Below are positions 825 through 14,716 of a stretch of 64,000 nt of DNA, piece by piece (within the stretch, counting starts at the first letter, position 1; every line of letters begins with the position of its first letter). The position numbers were made by a program, and so were the translations under genes. The DNA is from Scatophagus argus (taxonomy: Eukaryota; Chordata; Actinopteri; Scatophagidae): assembly GCF_020382885.2 (NCBI RefSeq), contig NC_058515.1:11515223-11579222 (forward strand). Reading direction: 5' to 3'. The notes under the pieces were generated by a model. The model ran no database searches. It was not told the DNA's origin and was given only the letters and a program-made list of their open reading frames with translations.

Positions 825-1973
825 AAGTTTTTAATTAGAGTTGTTTAGTTTATTATGTTCACCTGTAGAGTTTAATACATTACAATACGATACAATGGCC
901 AGTAAATGGCAATAAATACCATTTTCAAAGTTTAGAAGTGTTGTTACACTTCTAAAAACAAGAGACAATTGAGGCCAGTCTTGGTGTGTCCAAGAGGAAT
1001 TGCTCCCCAAGTTAGTGTATAAAAAAAAAGTACTTTTGGCTGTTAAATACTTGATCATCCATATTGTTCCCGTGTATGGAAGTGAAGGCACACAGCGACA
1101 GATGCCTTGGAGCATTGTTTGTTAATTGACTTCCAAATGTGCTGTAATCCAAACACAAACACAGTGCAAATATACATAGCAGAAACAAAAACCAAATGCT
1201 TTCTGAGTGACACATCAGTCAATTTTCCATACCCTCAGGCCGCAAAGAAAAACTGACGGTTGAAAAACAAATATTTTAAAAACAAGGTGAAAAGCTACAC
1301 TTTGAGTGTCTAAAGGTCAGAACACTTGTCTTGTTGAGATTATGTCACTATAGATCAACATTAATTCAGAAAGGTGGTGGGCAAGCAAGTACATAAGTGA
1401 ATTATATACATGAAAACGTGTTTGACTTTGTGTCGACAATATGGACACATACTCCTGCAATGCCACCCACATGGTCCCAGACATGCCATGGCTCCACCAG
1501 TAAACCTGCAAAGGTAATGAGCAGGCCAAAATATGCTTTGCTCCACCTGAATCTTAGGTTCAGCAGTCATTTCTAGCCTCTATTGCAGTCTTGCCCACAA
1601 CAGCCTTACATTGGCACATGAGAGAGTACTCATCCTAAAAGTCTATTTTTGTGGAAGAAATAAGTCAGGGTGAAAAAGCAGTTAGATCTTATACCTCTTT
1701 CCCTATCATATACGTCAGATGAGGCCCCCCCAACTCTACCATGCATCAGATAATTAGTGCTGTACTTCCATGCAGCTTTAGCGTCATTTTCTTAGCCTGA
1801 CATTTGTAGCCATAAAATTCATATTTAAGACCTACTTTTAAATAAAATTTGCAAGTTGTAATCAACAGTCTGCTTTTGTCCATCTGAAATCAAACCTCAA
1901 ACCTTATCAGTATTGTGCCATGCCAGAGCAGTACCTTACAGTCATAGTGGCAGTATCTAAGGAGGAAAGTCAG
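825..1973. other. Intergenic; one fragment resembling the family's upstream region
   Basis: No gene is supported. A fragment around 1102-1126 (TGCCTTGGAGCATTGTTTG) is almost the same as 2888-2906, which lies about 90 bp upstream of the TATA box of the intact gene at 3 kb. This suggests that upstream sequence of the broken copy survives here. The expected first two exons do not follow it. Confidence 0.4.
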
Positions 1974-2230
1974 ATTTCACCAAAAACGAAGAGGATAAAG
2001 CTGATGGCTCTATAGTGAAAGAGATTCAAGTTGGTGAAGATGGAGAATTTGCTGCCTCCAAAGCTGAAGAGCTGGAATCTTTGGAAGATGAAGAGTCAGA
2101 GACGGACATTTCTGAAGAGCAAGTGCCAGAGGTGGACAATTCTGAAGCAGAAGAGGTTCTGGAAGATGGAGATGATCTGCAGCTTAGAAAATATCATAGA
2201 ATTTCCATTTCCCTTCTTCTCTTCTTTTGA
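1974..2230 (+). pseudogene. Broken copy of the acidic-repeat secreted protein gene (last exon only)
   Basis: This is homologous to the third exon of the two intact genes downstream. It begins after an AG, in the same phase, with a near-identical start (DFTKNEEDK against DSTKNEEVK). It then has an acidic stretch containing ELESLEDEE and one recognisable decapeptide (VPEVDNSEAE). The end (DDLQL) matches the downstream gene at 6 kb, but the normal stop context is displaced by about 40 bases of unrelated pyrimidine-rich sequence, so the frame runs on to a later TGA. No exon 1 or signal-peptide exon is found upstream, and the preceding 240 bases do not resemble intron 2 of the other copies. The acceptor has a poor pyrimidine tract. 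A live gene with rearranged 5' exons cannot be excluded. Confidence 0.6.
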
Positions 2231-2482
2231 TTAAGCTGAGGAGGTTGAATCCCCCATGAAGTCCTGGTGGTATGTCACAGATATACTCAACTTCTTCTCA
2301 TGTTTTTCAAATAATTTACCTGTGAGAAAACCCTGCATAGTGACTCCAAGCCACAACATTTATTTAAAAAGATATTTGGGGACAGGTACATAACATGGTG
2401 CATATGTGTCATCTTCTATCCAGTGATAATAGGCTTTGTCTTGTCTAAGAAACATCTGTTTATGTGCTCAAATGTTATTGAA
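2231..2482 (+). other. 3'-UTR homology of the broken copy
   Basis: This stretch aligns with the 3' UTRs of both intact genes, for example the shared GATAATAGGCT and TGTGCTCAAATGTTA blocks and the AACAGAATTAGT block. The homology stops abruptly where the SINE at 2483 begins, so the polyadenylation region of this copy has been replaced or displaced. Confidence 0.65.
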
Positions 2483-2685
2483 AACAGAATTAGTGGTCCC
2501 ACACACACAATCTTTTCAATGCTCAGCCACTCACTCACACACTAATGGAGCAACCATTGGTTCGATTGAATTGAATTAGGATTGAGTATCTTGCCCAGTA
2601 ACCAGAGACCAACGAACCTTCTGATTAGTGGACAACCTGCTCTACCTCCAAAGCCACAGTCACACCTTTGCTAGCGAGTCACTCA
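2483..2685 (-). mobile_element. tRNA-derived SINE (old, minus strand)
   Basis: Read on the minus strand, this shows the order typical of fish tRNA-headed SINEs. A GGAGGTAGAGCAGGTTGTCC head comes first, then AATCAGAAGGTTCG (degenerate box B), then GGGCAAGATACTCAATCC, then a GTGTGTGAGTG stretch. It interrupts the 3'-UTR homology of the broken acidic-repeat gene. The copy is diverged, and its ends are approximate. Confidence 0.7.
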
Positions 2686-2980
2686 GTTCATCAGCAAATT
2701 TGCCCAAGCCTCAGGGCATGGGTCAAAACAGAATGATTTTAACTGCTTTAAGGTGTTGAATTTTGTAATATGATAGTAATTGCGGTCTAAAAATCGTGTT
2801 GAATGTTGATTTACTTGAAAACCGATTACTTTTTCCGCTTGCCCCAGGAACAGTGTGTCTCTGCGTTGAAATTGCCCTATATCATCTGCCTTGGAGCATT
2901 GTTTTTCAAACAACAAAATGTGTGGAAACTTCTCATTGGTTGAGCTTTGTAACTGAACAAATATTCTTCCCTCAAAAGAG

Positions 2981-2988
2981 TATATATT
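2981..2988 (+). promoter_or_regulatory. TATA box of acidic-repeat gene A
   Basis: TATATATT lies about 30 bases upstream of a block (CATCAGTTAGAAAGTCAGAA) that is conserved word for word upstream of the second gene at 5.8 kb. This places transcription start near 3010. Confidence 0.6.
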
Positions 2989-3180
2989 TGAAGTCCATCA
3001 GTTAGAAAGTCAGAATCCTCCTGGTTCGAGTTGAAGCCCTTTGTTCCACAGAGCTACCACAAGCTGAAGGTGAGTACAGTACTTTTGTTTGACTCACCAG
3101 ACCCCACAGAATCAGGAGCTAAATATTCACAAGACCATTTGGTTGCATTTTTTCAAAGTTTTTCTGATTTCTTTCAGAAA

Positions 3181-4080
3181 ATGAAGATCCAGATTGTGCT
3201 TCTGGCCCTTGCTTTTTTGGCTGTGATCAGTGCTGCGCCAGCACCAAACAAAGGTAATAGATGATAAAATCTGATGTTGTATGTAGTTTTTATAATATTT
3301 GAAGTTTCGTGGTATGTACAGCTGATGTGCCTCATGTATTGATGCAGTGTCTTAACATGTTAGGTCATCAATACTTCCAATAATTTTTATGTAGGACCAC
3401 AAAACCTGCCGAGTACTTTGTCTAAATGGACAATTGTTTGAGTACATATTCTTTATTAAAGGATGCAATTATATGTCCTTCTAACTCCCATGATTTCAGA
3501 TTCCACCAAAAATGAAGAGGTTAAAGTTGAAGAGTTGCCCTCTTCCCTAGAAAAAGAGCTAGAATCTTTGGAAGTGCCAGAGATGGATGTTTCTGAAGAG
3601 GATGTGCCAGAGCTGGACATTTCCGAAGAGGATGTGCCAGAGCTGGACGTTTCCGAAAAGGATGTGCCAGAGCTGGAAATTCCCGAAGAGGATGTGCCAG
3701 AGCTGGACGTCTCCGAAGAGGATGTGCCAGAGCTGGACGTTTCTGAAGAAGACTTGCCAGAGGTGGACGTTTCCGAAGATGATGTGCCAGAGCTGGACGT
3801 TTCTGAAGAAGACTTGCCAGAGGTGGACGTTTCCGAAGATGATGTGCCAGAGCTGGACGTTTCTGAAGAAGACTTGCCAGAGGTGGACGTTTCCGAAGAG
3901 GATGTGCCAGAGCTGGACGTTTCTGAAGAAGACTTGCCAGAGGTGGACGTTTCTGAAGAAGACTTGCCAGAGGTGGATGTTTCCGAAAAGGATTTGCCAG
4001 AGCTGGACGTTTCCGAAGATGATGTGCCAGAGGTGGACGGTGTTGAAGATAGTATCACTCTTGAAGTTGAGAGCCTGTAA
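3181..4080 (+). CDS. Putative secreted acidic decapeptide-repeat protein A (217 aa, 3 exons)
   Basis: I do not recognise a named family. The model is a non-coding exon about 3010-3069, exon 2 at 3178-3253 (coding from 3181) and exon 3 at 3500-4080, with GT-AG introns; the coding intron is phase 1. Residues 1-18 (MKIQIVLLALAFLAVISA) form a clear signal peptide, with cleavage likely before AAPAP. After a Lys/Glu linker, about 16 tandem copies of a 10-residue unit (consensus VPELDVSEED, alternating with LPEVDVSEDD) fill nearly all of exon 3. The mature protein is extremely acidic with no cysteine, which suggests an extracellular, disordered, cation-binding protein; Ser in SEE/SED contexts could be Fam20C-type phosphosites. 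Identical 60-base rows near 3721-3900 point to recent repeat expansion. The leader-exon layout resembles SCPP genes, but SCPP introns are phase 0. Confidence 0.7.
3590..4042 (+). repeat. Coding minisatellite, 30-bp unit
   Basis: About 15 tandem 30-base units (GATGTGCCAGAGCTGGACGT plus ten more) lie inside exon 3 of gene A. Units pair into a 60-base higher-order repeat that is identical at 3721-3780 and 3781-3840 and nearly identical in the next two rows. Because the period is a multiple of three, the other frames and the opposite strand also stay open. Confidence 0.95.
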
Positions 4081-4506
4081 GATACGTTTTCAAAGAAGAA
4101 TAGATTATGGAAGTCTTCTCATATTTTTCAAATAATTAATTTGTGAAAAAAAGCCTGCATAGTGACTCAAGCCACAACATTTATTCAAAAAGATTTTAGT
4201 ATATACAATGTGACCCTACCCTACCTTATGTTACAGTGAGTGTCATATTCTGTCAATATTCTGGAGTGATAATAGGCTCTTGTCCTGTTTGAGCAGCATA
4301 TGTTTGTGGGCTCAAATGTTAAAGAAGACAGAATTAGTAGCTAAAGCCACTGTATCTGACTGACCATCTCACAGAAAATCTCAGAAAATAAAAATGTAAG
4401 GCAACATTTAAGCTTATATGTTGTTTATATTGTCGTCTGTATCTTTGTATCTGTATCTGCTCTTCCTCTCTAGCTCTCCTGCTGACATGATCATGATACT
4501 GTATAC

Positions 4507-4512
4507 AATAAA
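4507..4512 (+). terminator. Polyadenylation signal of acidic-repeat gene A
   Basis: AATAAA lies 427 bases after the stop codon. The same position relative to the stop (GCATGCAATAAA) is used in the sister gene, which supports both. Confidence 0.65.
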
Positions 4513-4534
4513 TAGTGTTTTGGCATCCAAACCA

Positions 4535-5012
4535 GCTGGGTTGTTGTTTTGCAATGATCAGATCAAGTAAAAGCTTTTGACAGCATAAGAATAGGCAGTC
4601 TTAGTGTAGCATACCCTCCGAAAGATGGTAAGAGACTCGACTGATGGTTTTAAGGTTTATTGCTGATCCATAAACCAGCTCTATGAACCAACGTGAGAAC
4701 TGACAAAACAAACAAAAAACAAAACGATCACATCTCCGTTTCCACCTCTGTCCACAATAAACGGCTAACAATCACAGTACTTGTCAATCAGAGAGTTTAC
4801 ATATTTAGTGTATATACATGCATAACAAATGATCAATTAATTCAGTAATAATTATAAGTACAACGCACACCAACCTTGTGCCTCCACGGGGGGTTGCCAT
4901 AATCGTTTGCCATTAATTCCTTCCTATCCAAGCGGCCTTTTGGTTTCCCCAGCAACGCAACACAAGGAGCCAGTGCGCATCAGTGAATTTCAAAATAAAA
5001 TCTCTCTATTCA
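4535..5012. other. Intergenic between tandem copies
   Basis: I see no gene. The sequence is AT-rich and includes A-rich tracts near 4705-4720. Confidence 0.5.
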
Positions 5013-5272
5013 GTCGTGGATCAGCAGTTAGGGTGTCGGACCCGTAACCGGTGGATCGCTGGTTCGATTCCCCGTACCGGTGTCCATGGCTGAGGTACCC
5101 TTGAGCAAGGTACCTAACCCCCACTGCTCCCCGGGCGCTGCACGCGGTCGCCCACTGCCCCGGGTTTGCTGTGTGTGTGTGCACGTCACTTGGGTGGGTT
5201 AAATGCAGAGCACAAATTTCGTTGGAGTGAGTTCCCTCCAATGACAAAATATGTCACTTTCATCTTTCATCT
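5013..5272 (+). mobile_element. tRNA-derived SINE (well preserved)
   Basis: The element has a tRNA-like head with a box A-like CAGCAGTTAGGGTGTCGG and an intact box B GGTTCGATTCC at 5061-5071. The conserved fish SINE body follows (CCTTGAGCAAGGTACCTAAC, then CACTGCTCCCCGGGCGCTGC). The tail is a short repeat (TTTCATC twice). It sits between the two intact acidic-repeat genes, so it inserted after, or separately from, the duplication. I do not assign a subfamily. Confidence 0.85.
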
Positions 5273-5828
5273 TATTTACAAAATGGAACCATTAATGCAT
5301 TAACGGGCGTAACATATCATTACATTTATTACATACAGTTTTTATTATTAAAAGAAACCCAACTCATCAAATTTATACATGTAAGGATATCATGTTAAAA
5401 GCATATAAAGCAGATATTTCATTTTGGGATTAACCTATCAACAATGCACACACCTTCTGGTGGACAAAACAAGAAACAGCAAATACAAAACAAAAGAAAT
5501 GGGTTTGCTATACTTAGCATTTTTAGGTTTTTTTACTCTTTGTGTGTTTTGAATGTTTATTATCCTGACAGCATGTGGTTTCTGTCACCAGAGTAAAAAC
5601 AAAACCTTCACCCAACTTCAGTATTTATTCACAGGATCTCACTTAGAAATCAGGAGATATTCCGTTTACACTGAAAACAAGTCCAACTAGAATTTGGATT
5701 TAAATATGATTATTACACTTGGCCAGATCTTCTGTTTTCATTGTGCTTCAGAGTGTTTTTCCACTGAATACCAAGCCGTGGAACGTTTTCATTGGATGAG
5801 CTTTGTTGGTGAACGTGCCCCTAATAAA
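5273..5828. other. Upstream region of acidic-repeat gene B
   Basis: No gene is seen. From about 5740 the sequence begins to resemble the upstream region of gene A (for example the CATTGG-TGAGCTTTGT block just before the TATA box in both). Confidence 0.45.
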
Positions 5829-5834
5829 TATAAA
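5829..5834 (+). promoter_or_regulatory. TATA box of acidic-repeat gene B
   Basis: TATAAA lies in the same position as the TATA element of gene A, followed by the conserved GGTCCATCAGTTAGAAAGTC block. Transcription start is expected near 5855. Confidence 0.65.
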
Positions 5835-6020
5835 TTTGAGGTCCATCAGTTAGAAAGTCAGAATCCTCCTGGTTCGAGTTGAAGCCCTTTGTTCCACAGA
5901 GCTACCACAAGTTGAAGGTGAGTACAGTATTTTTGTTTGACTCACCAGACCCCACAGAATCAGGGGCTGAATATTCACAAGACCATTTGATTGTGAAGTT
6001 TTTCCGATTTGTTTTAGAAA

Positions 6021-6560
6021 ATGAAGATCCAGATTGTGCTGTTGCTCTTTGGTTTTGTGGCTGTGATCAGTGCCAGACGAAGCTCAGACGATGATGTGGG
6101 AGTCAATGGTAATAGATGATAAAATCTGATGTTGGATGTGGTTTTTATGATATTTGAAGTTTCATGGTATGTGCTGCAGATGTGCCTCATGTATTGATGC
6201 AGTGTCTTAACATGTTAGGTCATCAATGCTTCCAATATTTTTTATGTAGGACCACAAAACCTGCCGAGTTCTTTGTCTAAATGGACGATTGTTTGAGTAC
6301 ACATTCTTTATTAAAGGATGCAATTACATGTCCTTCTTACTCCCACAGACGCTAACGCTGATGACACAAATTATGAGGATACTGAAGATGAAGAAGACCC
6401 TGAAATGGACGCCTTCAGAGATGATGAGCCGCAAATGGACGCCTTCAGAGATGATGAGACGCAAATGGACGCCTTCAGAGATGATGGTCAGCTTATGGAC
6501 AGGTCTGGAGAGGAACATCCAGGGATGCACGATGATGATCTGCAGCTTGATGCTGAATAA
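6021..6560 (+). CDS. Putative secreted acidic decapeptide-repeat protein B (99 aa, 3 exons)
   Basis: This is a tandem sister of gene A. The non-coding exon ends at 5917, exon 2 is 6018-6108 (coding from 6021) and exon 3 is 6349-6560, again with a phase-1 coding intron. The signal peptide starts with the same eight residues (MKIQIVLL) and ends near VISA. The mature part starts RRSSDDDVG, is very acidic, and has three to four 10-residue units of the type PQMDAFRDDE. These align with the units of gene A as P-[EQ]-[LM]-D-x-x-x-[ED]-D. The C-terminus is DDDLQLDAE, shared with the broken copy. The protein is less than half the length of A because it has far fewer repeats. Introns and UTRs are nearly identical to A, while exon 3 is not. 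The function is unknown; an extracellular cation- or mineral-binding role is only inferred from composition. Confidence 0.7.
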
Positions 6561-6978
6561 GCTGAGGAGGCTGAATCCCTCATGAAGTCCTGCCAGTATG
6601 TCACAAATATACTTAACTTCTTCTCATATTTTTCAAATAATTAATTTGTGAAAAAAAGCCTGCACACTATCTCCAAGCCACAACATTTATTCAAAAAGAT
6701 GTTTGGGGACAGGTACATCATGGTACATCAGTGAGCCATATGTGTCATATTCTCTCCAGTGATAATAGGCTCTTGTCCTGTCTGAGCAACATCTGTTTAT
6801 GTGCTCAAATGTTAATGAAAACAGAATTAGTAGCTAAAGCCACTGTATCTGACTGACCATCCCACAGAGACCATCCCACAGAGAAAACGTAATTCAACAT
6901 TTAAGCTCATATGTTGTCATCTGGATCTTCACTTGTATCTGTAACTGCTCTTCCTCTAATGCTCTTGTTACTGCATGC

Positions 6979-6984
6979 AATAAA
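6979..6984 (+). terminator. Polyadenylation signal of acidic-repeat gene B
   Basis: AATAAA lies 419 bases after the stop, in a context (GCATGCAATAAACC) matching that of gene A. Confidence 0.65.
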
Positions 6985-6999
6985 CCACAATTCAGCATC

Positions 7000-7640
7000 A
7001 AAACCAACTGAGTCATTTTATTACTTTTATTTTATTATAGTATGTGGTTTCTTTGCTAGAGGCCCCTCAGTTAAACCACACGTAAGTCGTGTGGGATCAT
7101 ACGAGCCGTTACCTTTATCGTTTAACAGCTTCATGTTGAAAACTTCCTTCCTCAATCTCTAGCTCTCCTTCAAGTTACAACCACAGACAAACAATTAAAA
7201 ACAACAACAACAACAAAAAAGCAAAGCAAACTAAGAAATATCTTCATCAATTGGACAACACTTGTGCAGCATTTGGGAAACACACTGTAAACACACACAA
7301 CGCAGCACATCCCAGAAAAGCAATGCAAGTGTTGGGTTTGCTTGTTGCTACAGTTTGTGACTCATGAAGTTACTGAAGAAGAGCTTTCTTTTTTTTTACT
7401 TTTAAAAATTTTTTTTTCTTTATTGACATTAACTAAGAACATGAGATCATCATGAGTGTTACGGTTAAGATCGAAGTATTTTTATACGCATGTTTACGTC
7501 ATGGTACAATGTCATGCCATTCACAGTGCATACACAATCCATTTTTCCCAGCGATCAGTACATTTCTCCAACCAAAGTCTTAAAACAAACGTAAGTCTCC
7601 ATACAGTAACTTCCTTGGATGATCCCGTGCCACTGGACCA
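7000..7640. other. Gene-free stretch
   Basis: No gene is seen. The stretch includes a small inverted repeat (CCACACGTAAGTCGTGTGG near 7076), an (AAC)n patch near 7200 and T-rich runs near 7390-7420. Confidence 0.5.
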
Positions 7641-8970
7641 ATGTTGGAGGATCTAGTTATGACCATTTCCTATCGCCCCATAGCCCTCACATCTGTGGTG
7701 ATGAAATGTTTTGAGAAGCTGGTCAAAACATTCATCACCCCTCTGCCCCCCACCCTGAATCCCCTACAGTTTGCATACCGCCCAGACAGATCCACAGACG
7801 ACGCCATAACCTTCCTGCTGCACAAGACACTTTCCCACGCAGACACTAGGATGGGGAACTATGTGAGAGTGCTGTTTGTGGACTACAGCTTAGCATTCAA
7901 TACCATGGTCCCCTCCAGGCTGCTCACTAAGCTGTGTGATCTTGGACTGAACTCCTCCCTGTGCAGGTGGATCCACAGCTTCCTTACTAGCAGACAACAG
8001 GTGGTACGTGTGGGCCCCTATAGCTCATCCCCCCCTCACCCTCAACACGTGTGCTGAGTCCCCTGCTGTACTCCCTGTACACACATGACTGTGTCCACAT
8101 CAGACAGCAACATCATAAAGTTTGCTGACGACACAGCCATCGTGGGGTTAATCTCCCACAACAAGGAGGAGGCCTGCAGGAAGGAGGTCACCCACCTGGA
8201 GAGCTGGTGCCAGGAGAATAACCTCCTGCTGAACGTCAGCAAAACCAAGGAGCTGATTGTGGACTACAGGAGGAAGCAGCAACTGAAGGACATCCGTCCA
8301 CTCTGCATCGGCGGGTCTGAGGTGAAGAGGGTGGACAGTCTTAAATACCTCGGTGTGACCATCACACGGGACCTGTCCTGGTCACTGCACATTAACAGGA
8401 CTGTTAAGAAGGCCAGGCAGCGCCTGTTCCACCTCAGACGCCTCAGAGACTTCAGGCTCCCCCTCAAGGTGCTCAGGAACTTTTACACCTGCACCACTGA
8501 GAGCATCTTGAGTAGGAGCATCACCACATGGATGGGCAGCTGCACAAAGCAGGACCTCTCGGCCTTTAGGAGGGTAGTCAATCAGAACAACTCTACCCGA
8601 CCTGCAGGACATTTACATCAAACGACGCAGGTCGAGAGCTGAGAAGATCCTCAGGCAGCCCCATCACCCCGGACACTCACTCTTCTCCCTGTTGCCATCA
8701 GGCCGTCGGTTCCGCTGCCTGAGAACCAACACGGAGAGGATGAGGAAAAGCTTCTTCCCCCCTGTCTGCTCAACAGTGAGCGTTAATCTGGACAATCCTA
8801 CTCACACCTGCACTACATGTAAATACTATTCATGTAAATACTGCACATTTTCACTTTTTTAATTTTATTTTTTTTTTATAAGCGTTTGAAAAAAGCGTTT
8901 GGTAGCAGGGACATAAAGAATTTCACTGCACATTGTACAGTGTATGATTGTGTGTGTGACAAATAAACCC
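7641..8970 (+). mobile_element. 5'-truncated L2-clade non-LTR retrotransposon (reverse transcriptase part)
   Basis: Two ORF pieces (7641-8057 and 8085-8642) cover the middle and end of a LINE reverse transcriptase. Visible motifs are [19 protein letters not shown], the [15 protein letters not shown] block, [12 protein letters not shown] and the catalytic FADDTA near 8130, followed by the thumb region (LLLNVSKTKELIVDYR and SLKYLGVTITRDLSW). The frame shifts between the pieces and again near 8590, so the element is dead. The endonuclease domain is missing. The 3' UTR runs to about 8970 (CAAATAAACCCATCTTGTATC). This order and the short 3' tail fit the L2/Maui type common in fish. Confidence 0.9.
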
Positions 8971-12932: not shown

Positions 12933-14716
12933 TCAGCGCAGTGAGTTAGTGGGCATACAGTCACACAGGGCCCTCCTCTCCGCCCTCAGCACCAGCGTCT
13001 CTGTCTGCGATGGACAAGACAACGCATCACTGCAAACAAACCTCAGCTGAACTCAGGGGCTTGGTTTTACATTTTTAGTTTAATTAATTAGCTAAAAGTC
13101 CCCCCTTTTTTTTTTTTGCCCGTCGGTCAACATCCGAGCTGCTCTATCTTCTAAAATTGTTGGGGGTGTATGCAGCTTATTAGGAACGTGGCAGAGACTA
13201 GTCAGGGCTGAAAAAAGTCCTCCAACCCCTCTGCTCTTTGGGCTAAAGAGATAATTAAACTGTTTATTAACAGATAATTCTTCTAAGGGTGCTGCAACTA
13301 ATCGTCAGTCAATAGTAATGCAGTAAAAGACGTATCTCTTTGTCTTTTTCTAGAAATCTTTATTTAAAGGCATTCTAAAGCTTTGATCTTTTTCACAAAG
13401 TTCTTATAATAGTAATATTTACATATAATATATAATATTTTTCCCGACAGTTTCATAAATAAATCATACTGAAACCTCCATAAGAAAGAACACATTAAAC
13501 ATGAAATGATAGCATATCATAAACCCTCCAGTTCAGCCTCCGGCTATCGTCATGGATTCCGATATTCAAAGACAAAGTCACCGTGGTCATACACTAACTG
13601 TTATATCAAAGACTCATCAGCTGGTGAATCATGAGCCTTTAACACTTGGGGAGCAGGGGACAAGAAGGATTTGTCAAACAAAATCATTTGAAAAAAGGAG
13701 GAAACAACAGGGCTGACAGGGATTTTCTCAGACTTCACCTACCCTGGCATCAAGGTTAAACGCGGTCTTCTTTAGATCTTGCAGTGCCCTCTGCATGAAC
13801 TCAAATGCGTGACAATCCACACATGGACGACCTGGAAATAAAAGGGCAGAATTCATACACTGGTTGTTGTCTCATAAGGATGTAACTATCTCCTGAATTA
13901 TTTTTGTACCTGGAATTCATTTTAAACTAGGCTGGGGCCACAAGTAAACATCACAGGGCAATGGTAGACATTAGACATGATGTGCAGCAGAGGCACAACC
14001 TGACTGATGCCAGTTAGCTGCATGGCAACATTTACTTCAGGTGTGATAACATCAGCTAACATTAGCCACCACAAACCACCGCTGACACCAGAACAAGCAG
14101 GGCTGCAGCAGCAACACTGCAGAGCGTGTTTGTGACACAAAGCCTGTTGTATTCCATTTAAAATGTACAGAATCCTTCTTTAAGGTGCGGAATTAGTTAT
14201 GTTGATTTCACTCATTTTGTTCTCATGTAGGGCTAATTTTACCTCTTGGGGTAAACGCTATTTTAGAAGCTTTTCCATGACCCCCATGTTTATTTTAAAG
14301 CAAACGGGCAAATTTCCAATTATCTCCACAAGCGGCGGGCAAAATAAACGGCATCAGACTTCTACAGGGTTTAATCCAAGTCGAGATGATAAATTGGGTC
14401 TGAAAGTAGCAGCGCAGGTCCATTTTTCATATTGGGATGTACACATAAAATTGGGTGACCTACAAATTCCCATTAAGAAAACCTTTGGGAGGACCTGCTA
14501 TTATTAGTCTATGACTATCTCTGAGACAGGCTGCTTTCCACCTCACAAACATCTAAGTGTACTGAACAGGCATGAAAATCCCAGTCTCATGTAAAGCCAC
14601 CTACTTTCGGCAGGGATGACAGTACCAGCCTCCTGGTCCGCATCAGCTACACCGAGACCGAGAAGCTGGACCGCCAGAAGGAGCACCGCTGCCTGCAGAT
14701 ATCCACTGGATGCCAT
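12933..14716 (-). CDS. nicol1: NELL2-interacting cell ontogeny regulator 1 (C4orf48/NICOL orthologue), 90 aa, 3 coding exons
   Basis: Minus-strand exons are 14716-14605 (signal peptide), 13831-13743 and 13004-12933, with GT-AG introns of phase 1 and phase 0. Residues 1 to about 24 are a hydrophobic signal peptide. The mature part holds the highly conserved block SRPCVDCHAFEFMQRALQDL at 38-57, then TETLVLRAERRALCDC at 68-83. Four cysteines (41, 44, 81, 83) match the human protein, which is 95 residues. Known role: a small secreted protein that partners NELL2 in lumicrine epididymal signalling and was first noted as a brain neuropeptide-like factor. It lies head to head with nelfa, 1.1 kb apart, the same neighbour as in human 4p16.3. 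Each exon is too short to give a notable ORF. The start is the only Met in exon 1 before the signal peptide. Confidence 0.93.

Follow-up and report, generated by a model that had tools for sequence, protein, structure and literature searches.

The deposition of calcium carbonate in fish otoliths is reported to be controlled by acidic, disordered, phosphorylated secreted proteins, namely Starmaker (Stm) of zebrafish, Stm-l of medaka and OMM-64 of rainbow trout, of which Stm and Stm-l are described as serine-rich otolith polyanions with many phosphorylation sites and little or no sequence conservation (PMC4260845, PMC9496343). The activity of Starmaker is further said to be raised by phosphorylation, and Fam20C to have been found in fish otoliths (PMC9496343). 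A comparable design is known from the acidic SCPP genes of the SIBLING type (SPP1, DMP1, DSPP, SCPP1), in which an untranslated exon 1 and a signal-peptide exon 2 precede a large acidic last exon (PMC3250972). Here we describe a cluster of related genes in a 64,000-nucleotide stretch of the Scatophagus argus genome (positions 11515223-11579222 of contig NC_058515.1, hereafter the window), which consists of two intact genes and one exon-3 remnant, all on the plus strand: C (1974-2230), A (approximately 2992-4512) and B (approximately 5840-6984). We consider the chances about even that these genes form a tandem family whose products, small secreted polyanions, would be disordered, bind Ca2+ and work like Starmaker, OMM-64 and the acidic SCPPs.

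Gene structure and protein chemistry

Gene A is preceded by a TATA box (TATATAT, 2981-2987) and begins with a predicted non-coding exon 1 (2992-3069, start unmapped), which matches B 5840-5917 at 76 of 78 bases and is followed by the donor GTGAGT at 3070. Exon 2 (3178-3253) has its ATG at 3181, encodes the signal peptide MKIQIVLLALAFLAVISA and ends in phase 1. Joining 3253 to 3500 removes a phase-1 GT..AG intron and gives an open frame of 217 amino acids (coding 3181-3253 and 3500-4080), of which the exon-3 part (3500-4080) holds 16 decapeptide units of the VPELDVSEED type; the 3' untranslated region (UTR, 4081-4512) has AATAAA at 4507. Gene B has the same plan, with a TATA-like box (5824-5834, ATAAATATAAA), a predicted non-coding exon 1 (5840-5917) inside a conserved 5' block that is common to A and contains no ATG, an exon 2 (6018-6108) with its ATG at 6021, the signal peptide MKIQIVLLLFGFVAVISA and a phase-1 end, a coding part of exon 3 (6349-6560) with three to four units of the PQMDAFRDDE type, and a 3' UTR (6561-6984) with AATAAA at 6979. 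Its join of 6108 to 6349, again across a phase-1 GT..AG intron, leaves 99 amino acids open (6021-6108 and 6349-6560). Tandem Repeats Finder reports a period of 30 in both genes (15.7 copies at 3570-4039 in A, 2.8 copies at 6403-6486 in B), and the 16 units of A run in frame from 3574, the last one degenerate, with the 30-base length kept and no frame break. The original prediction of two intact three-exon genes with these splice junctions, each with a TATA box (here at 2981 and 5824), a non-coding first exon, a signal-peptide exon and a last exon of 30-base units, is thus borne out. As this 30-base repeat keeps several frames open on both strands, an open frame by itself proves little; what makes the case for genes is the combination of a signal-peptide exon and splice sites with promoter and polyadenylation signals.

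To judge from their sequences, the third exons of all three copies are related. Local alignments scored 34 for A and B, 50 for A and C and 31 for B and C, where codon shuffles averaged 12.3, 14.3 and 13.0, and in each pair 0 of 1000 shuffles reached the score; the proposal that the two unit types align with one another therefore holds.

The properties of the mature proteins depend on a signal peptide cleavage after residue 18, which was assumed rather than predicted by a program. On that assumption, mature A has 199 residues and a net charge of -82, with 26.6% Glu, 17.6% Asp, 16.6% Val, 10.6% Leu, 10.1% Pro and 10.1% Ser, and lacks Cys, Trp, Tyr and Phe. Mature B has 81 residues and a net charge of -27, with 28.4% Asp, 12.3% Glu, 7.4% Arg, 7.4% Ala, 6.2% Met, 3.7% Ser, 3.7% Pro and 2.5% Val, and is likewise free of Cys. 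The cluster accordingly deserves its earlier description as a tandem, predicted-secreted, acidic and cysteine-free family. The further statement that these proteins are almost all Asp, Glu, Ser, Val and Pro suits A, Leu being abundant there too, and does not suit B, which is rich in Asp, Glu, Arg, Ala and Met. Fam20C prefers S-x-E, and mature A has 11 such sites, together with 15 of the form S-x-x-D/E. By its sequence, then, the A protein is Starmaker-like in chemistry, being acidic and furnished with S-x-E sites.

No Pfam family (0) and no NCBIfam family (0) exceeded its cut-off for the cluster proteins, in keeping with the first reading, which recognised no family. Several candidate matches were judged to be artefacts of repetition or composition: six PDB sequence matches of A (best Internalin-J, E 2e-6), two of B (designed SAKe proteins, best E 3.2e-4) and NCBIfam pentapeptide models that lay far below their own cut-offs.

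Comparison with SCPP genes and otolith proteins

The layout of the cluster is that of an acidic SCPP or SIBLING gene in several respects: exon 1 is predicted to be non-coding, exon 2 starts three bases before the ATG and carries the predicted signal peptide, and the large acidic last exon bears S-x-E sites, as in the SIBLING layout already cited (PMC3250972). Asp and Glu make up 44% of mature A and 41% of mature B, and the acidic SCPP class is described as having more than 25% Glu, Asp and phospho-Ser (PMC5713400). One could suppose from this that the cluster is a very diverged, true member of the SCPP/SIBLING/Starmaker lineage that has moved from the SPARCL1 cluster, particularly as acidic members diverge past recognition, medaka Stm-l and zebrafish Stm being reported as without sequence similarity (PMC4260845). 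We regard this as unlikely. Intron 2 is in phase 1 in both A and B, whereas most SCPP genes are described as having phase-0 introns only (PMC5118209). Furthermore, none of the 12 matches to the SPARC domain (PF10591; these are exon rows, of which several may belong to one gene, and SPARCL1 was not singled out among them) lies on the contig of the cluster, and neither the integrin-binding RGD motif of the SIBLING proteins nor N-x-S/T occurs in mature A, mature B or exon 3 of C. SPP1 is itself described as lying apart from the SPARCL1 cluster in fishes (PMC5713400), and as an accepted exception of this kind exists, location is not decisive. The osteopontin model had no match anywhere in the genome, nor in the controls, and so had no power. 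Given the phase-1 introns, the contig free of SPARC-family matches, the absence of RGD and the lack of a Pfam family, we have not filed the cluster as SCPP; on its sequence, membership is not supported, but since 'most' allows exceptions we take it to be less probable, not impossible.

A further reading is an independent origin, in which a phase-1, decapeptide-repeat family of acidic, calcium-binding phosphoproteins arose in fishes between nat8l and nicol1, unrelated to the SCPPs derived from SPARCL1 and convergent with them in layout, chemistry and Fam20C-type sites. We hold this to be rather improbable as well, if a little less so than a displaced SCPP.

The likeness to Starmaker, Stm-l and OMM-64 is one of description, these being very acidic and disordered (PMC4260845, PMC9496343), unlike which the cluster proteins are short, are built of regular 10-residue units and are encoded by a tandem of three. 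No account of the gene neighbourhood of Starmaker, Stm-l or OMM-64 was found in the open-licence literature, including under starmaker together with faah2 or other neighbour-gene names, among the matches listed.

By analogy with these systems, the cluster probably works as an acidic SCPP does. Genes A and B would be expressed, and their chains would remain disordered through the secretory pathway, where in A the Ser of the S-E-E units may be phosphorylated by Fam20C, so that the charge rises further. The secreted chains would bind many Ca2+ ions, each of them weakly, and adsorb to calcium mineral or to a calcium-rich extracellular gel, and the outcome might be the nucleation, shaping or inhibition of calcium carbonate or calcium phosphate deposition, as by Starmaker, Stm-l and OMM-64. 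Charge, and with it the capacity for binding, would depend on the number of units, in agreement with the tandem expansion of A, and B would act as a shorter partner that is scarcely phosphorylated. Zebrafish Starmaker is reported to occur also on the chorion and to be involved in the fertilization envelope (PMC8812434), and the organic matrix of fish gut carbonate is reported to include acidic proteins (PMC5046086), so several tissues are conceivable for the cluster.

Several points weigh against this proposal. A polyanionic composition fixes neither ligand nor tissue, and mature B has a single S-x-E site. In addition, a single-sequence AlphaFold2 model of A exon 3 suggests, at low confidence, something other than plain disorder, with 16 short strands, approximately one per unit (mean predicted local distance difference test score, pLDDT, 62.4; predicted template modelling score, pTM, 0.55). 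AlphaFold2 is reported to tend toward beta-solenoids on perfect repeats (PMC11795689), and given this bias we do not count the strands as a fold. A Foldseek comparison of the A model with the PDB returned no match at E 0.001 or better (best 0.16), and B exon 3 was modelled with two weak helices (mean pLDDT 59.0, pTM 0.15). The earlier characterisation of the proteins as extracellular, disordered and cation-binding therefore survives as a fair inference from composition, the low-confidence strands of A standing against its disordered part.

Divergence among the copies and the fate of copy C

Genes A and B are alike over a stretch that opens just past the TATA box and closes with intron 2, differing at 2 of 78 positions in exon 1, 9 of 101 in intron 1 and 14 of 240 in intron 2 (94% identical). 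Outside this stretch the differences amount to 17/69 in the promoter (p 3e-5 against intron 2), 42/351 in the 3' UTR (p 0.015) and 32/89 past the polyadenylation signal. The coding exons are strongly different, the coding part of exon 2 being conspicuous within the otherwise similar stretch: its mature tail scarcely aligns (11 matches, 3 mismatches and 27 gap columns), nor does exon 3, and over 53 sites of the signal peptide there are 7 differences, 5 of them protein-altering in a count by hand. Such a contrast of diversified coding exons with similar introns and UTRs might be expected of a fast-evolving reproductive or mucosal secretion, such as a component of the egg coat, of ovarian or seminal fluid or of skin mucus. 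Semenogelin-type seminal-vesicle genes are like the cluster in that a repetitive coding exon changes fast amid conserved non-coding parts and a conserved signal peptide, and unlike it in exon layout and composition. The occurrence of zebrafish Starmaker on the chorion would suit such a role too (PMC8812434). However, the divergent promoters and 3' UTRs suggest that the like 5' halves are owed to gene conversion and not to a young duplication, and the divergence of the signal peptide is not significant relative to intron 2 (p 0.075). We consider a secretion of this sort doubtful, with about the same standing as a displaced SCPP; the mature protein may be under diversifying selection, and the sequence pattern between A and B looks like that of gene conversion across the 5' half.

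Copy C consists of an exon-3 remnant (1974-2230) with a phase-1 acceptor, reading TCAG and then AT, and 85 open codons, followed by a 3' UTR (2231-2494); the segment 2228-2494 is 86% identical to B 6554-6831, and the similarity stops before the polyadenylation part. It forms a bridge between the intact genes, its start (D-F-T-K-N-E-E, later ELESLE) being A-like and its end (DDLQL and the early 3' UTR) B-like. Near its coding end, at 2186-2230, it has approximately 37 bases more than B, which are pyrimidine-rich and encode the hydrophobic tail KYHRISISLLLFF. No AATAAA or ATTAAA occurs from 1842 to 3454, and hence none between 2494, where the 3' UTR similarity ends, and 3455. Relatives of exon 1, exon 2 and intron 2 were found neither in the window 5' of C nor in the 58 kb upstream, where five rows up to E 0.1 were recovered, all of them weak (E 0.010 to 0.088; 18-27 bases with the queries taken from genes A and B and with exon 3 of C, and 57 bases with the C upstream query). 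The original prediction of a broken copy is thus right in that exons 1-2 and the polyadenylation signal were not found, and wrong in so far as the frame is uninterrupted: C is a remnant through the loss of parts, not through an interrupted frame.

An 18-base element, TGCCTTGGAGCATTGTTT, lies at 1103-1120 and again at 2887-2904, both on the plus strand, as an exact match within a 39-column alignment (E 3e-4). Across the 570.7-Mb genome it has exactly these two occurrences, with none in reverse and none for a reversed-pattern control. It is found upstream of the TATA box of gene A and not upstream of gene B, and starts 871 bases before exon 3 of C and 613 before exon 3 of A. As the element is unique to the upstream regions of C and A, copy C seems once to have had a compact gene layout. 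The intervening stretch, 1142-1969, maps to one place in the genome, and hence no inserted repeat could be recognised in it.

Approximately 4.0 kb before the start of the window, and 6 kb upstream of C exon 3, there is a signal-peptide-like exon, MKDALMTFAVMGVVSAPIKDEKKS (L003:3933-4005). It shows an acceptor-like tract, codes over 73 bases, is in phase 1 and has a GTAATA donor, its length, phase and donor being as in gene A. Under a filter set post hoc, 122 kb of both strands yielded five exons of this form, which include those of A and B. No sequence relation to A exon 2 was found (937 of 5000 shuffles reached the protein score and 3787 of 5000 the DNA score), nor in the flanks (105/500 and 465/500). 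It could be a 5' exon of copy C or of another gene, and we treat it as a lead and not as part of C.

The condition of C, the count of three recognised copies in all and the limited sign of selection on the A units would each fit a decaying locus, left over from an older family that has lost its protein function. The pN/pS ratio among the 16 units of A is 0.49, which is not far below the 0.62 of the same units read in the +1 frame, and purifying selection on these units is weakly supported. Between A 3500-3634 and C 1974-2151 the internal gaps are 39 and 6 bases, whereas when 3' UTRs and first introns are compared, 7 of the 10 internal gaps have lengths not divisible by three; with blastn, A and C align with gaps of 6, 3 and 6 and then of 1 and 5 further on, so the sizes are aligner-dependent. 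For the proposed functional polyanions, the ratio of 0.49 and the gaps of 39 and 6 bases count in favour, and the nearness of the +1-frame ratio and the blastn gaps count against. Nevertheless, A and B retain their TATA-like boxes, splice sites, signal peptide, frame and AATAAA, and A retains 16 units without a frame break, and we regard such decay as highly improbable.

Genomic setting and significance

Copy searches covered the whole genome in its 48 contigs. The 5' region of A and B found two places and the cluster 3' UTR three, and a 69-residue protein query from gene A gave eight rows, all within gene A; this protein search was insensitive, in that it missed even gene B exon 2, and very frequent words are passed over by the DNA searches. 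By these DNA and protein searches, no further copy close enough to recognise turned up in the genome beyond A, B and C. A 22-base exon-1 match in a viral contig was judged to be chance, since the foreign stretch around it is GC-rich (66%) and otherwise unlike the window, and of 70 stretches that fitted a pattern in a viral scan with the 69-residue A piece, none was confirmed.

On one side the cluster is flanked by a GNAT (NAT8L-like) gene and on the other by a gene of the C4orf48/NICOL1 type, and it is upstream of NELFA. Of eight upstream open reading frames chosen by eye from 140, two matched Pfam, one as a GNAT acetyltransferase exon and the other, below its cut-off (30.2 against 34.3 bits), as a DNA polymerase A exon, which we take to be NAT8L-like and POLN-like, respectively. 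Downstream, the cluster is adjoined by a Neuropep_like gene on the minus strand (12948-13835; Pfam E 3e-18 and 1.2e-5 for two stretches), presumably for a secreted peptide of the C4orf48/NICOL1 type. Beyond it lie NELF-A, at 17.1 kb, and genes for an amidase (FAAH2-like) and a kinase (TESK-like), recognised among ten open reading frames chosen by eye. The order POLN-NAT8L-C4orf48-NELFA is that of human 4p16.3, with the acidic cluster placed between NAT8L and C4orf48. An origin from the C4orf48/NICOL1 gene was judged unlikely, without direct sequence comparison, as a gene of that type is separately present nearby. Just downstream of gene B (7623-8862, plus strand) lies a broken reverse transcriptase fragment of a retrotransposon without long terminal repeats (RVT_1 on 7623-8057, E 4.5e-12), and between A and B the segment at approximately 5003-5265 resembles what we take to be a tRNA-derived short interspersed element of fishes.

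In the open-licence literature, no report on the cluster was found among the matches listed, and no paper holds any of six cluster peptide strings; such genes may carry automatic public names, for example 'dentin sialophosphoprotein-like'. Acidic mineral-binding proteins evolve too quickly for sequence search, and more of them may therefore still be unnamed. Because its neighbourhood is defined, its genes are compact and its exon junctions are clear, this cluster provides a handle by which relatives could be found through synteny and then tested. If the cluster is not SCPP, then the SCPP-like design of a signal exon coupled to an acidic repeat exon would have been invented more than once in vertebrates.

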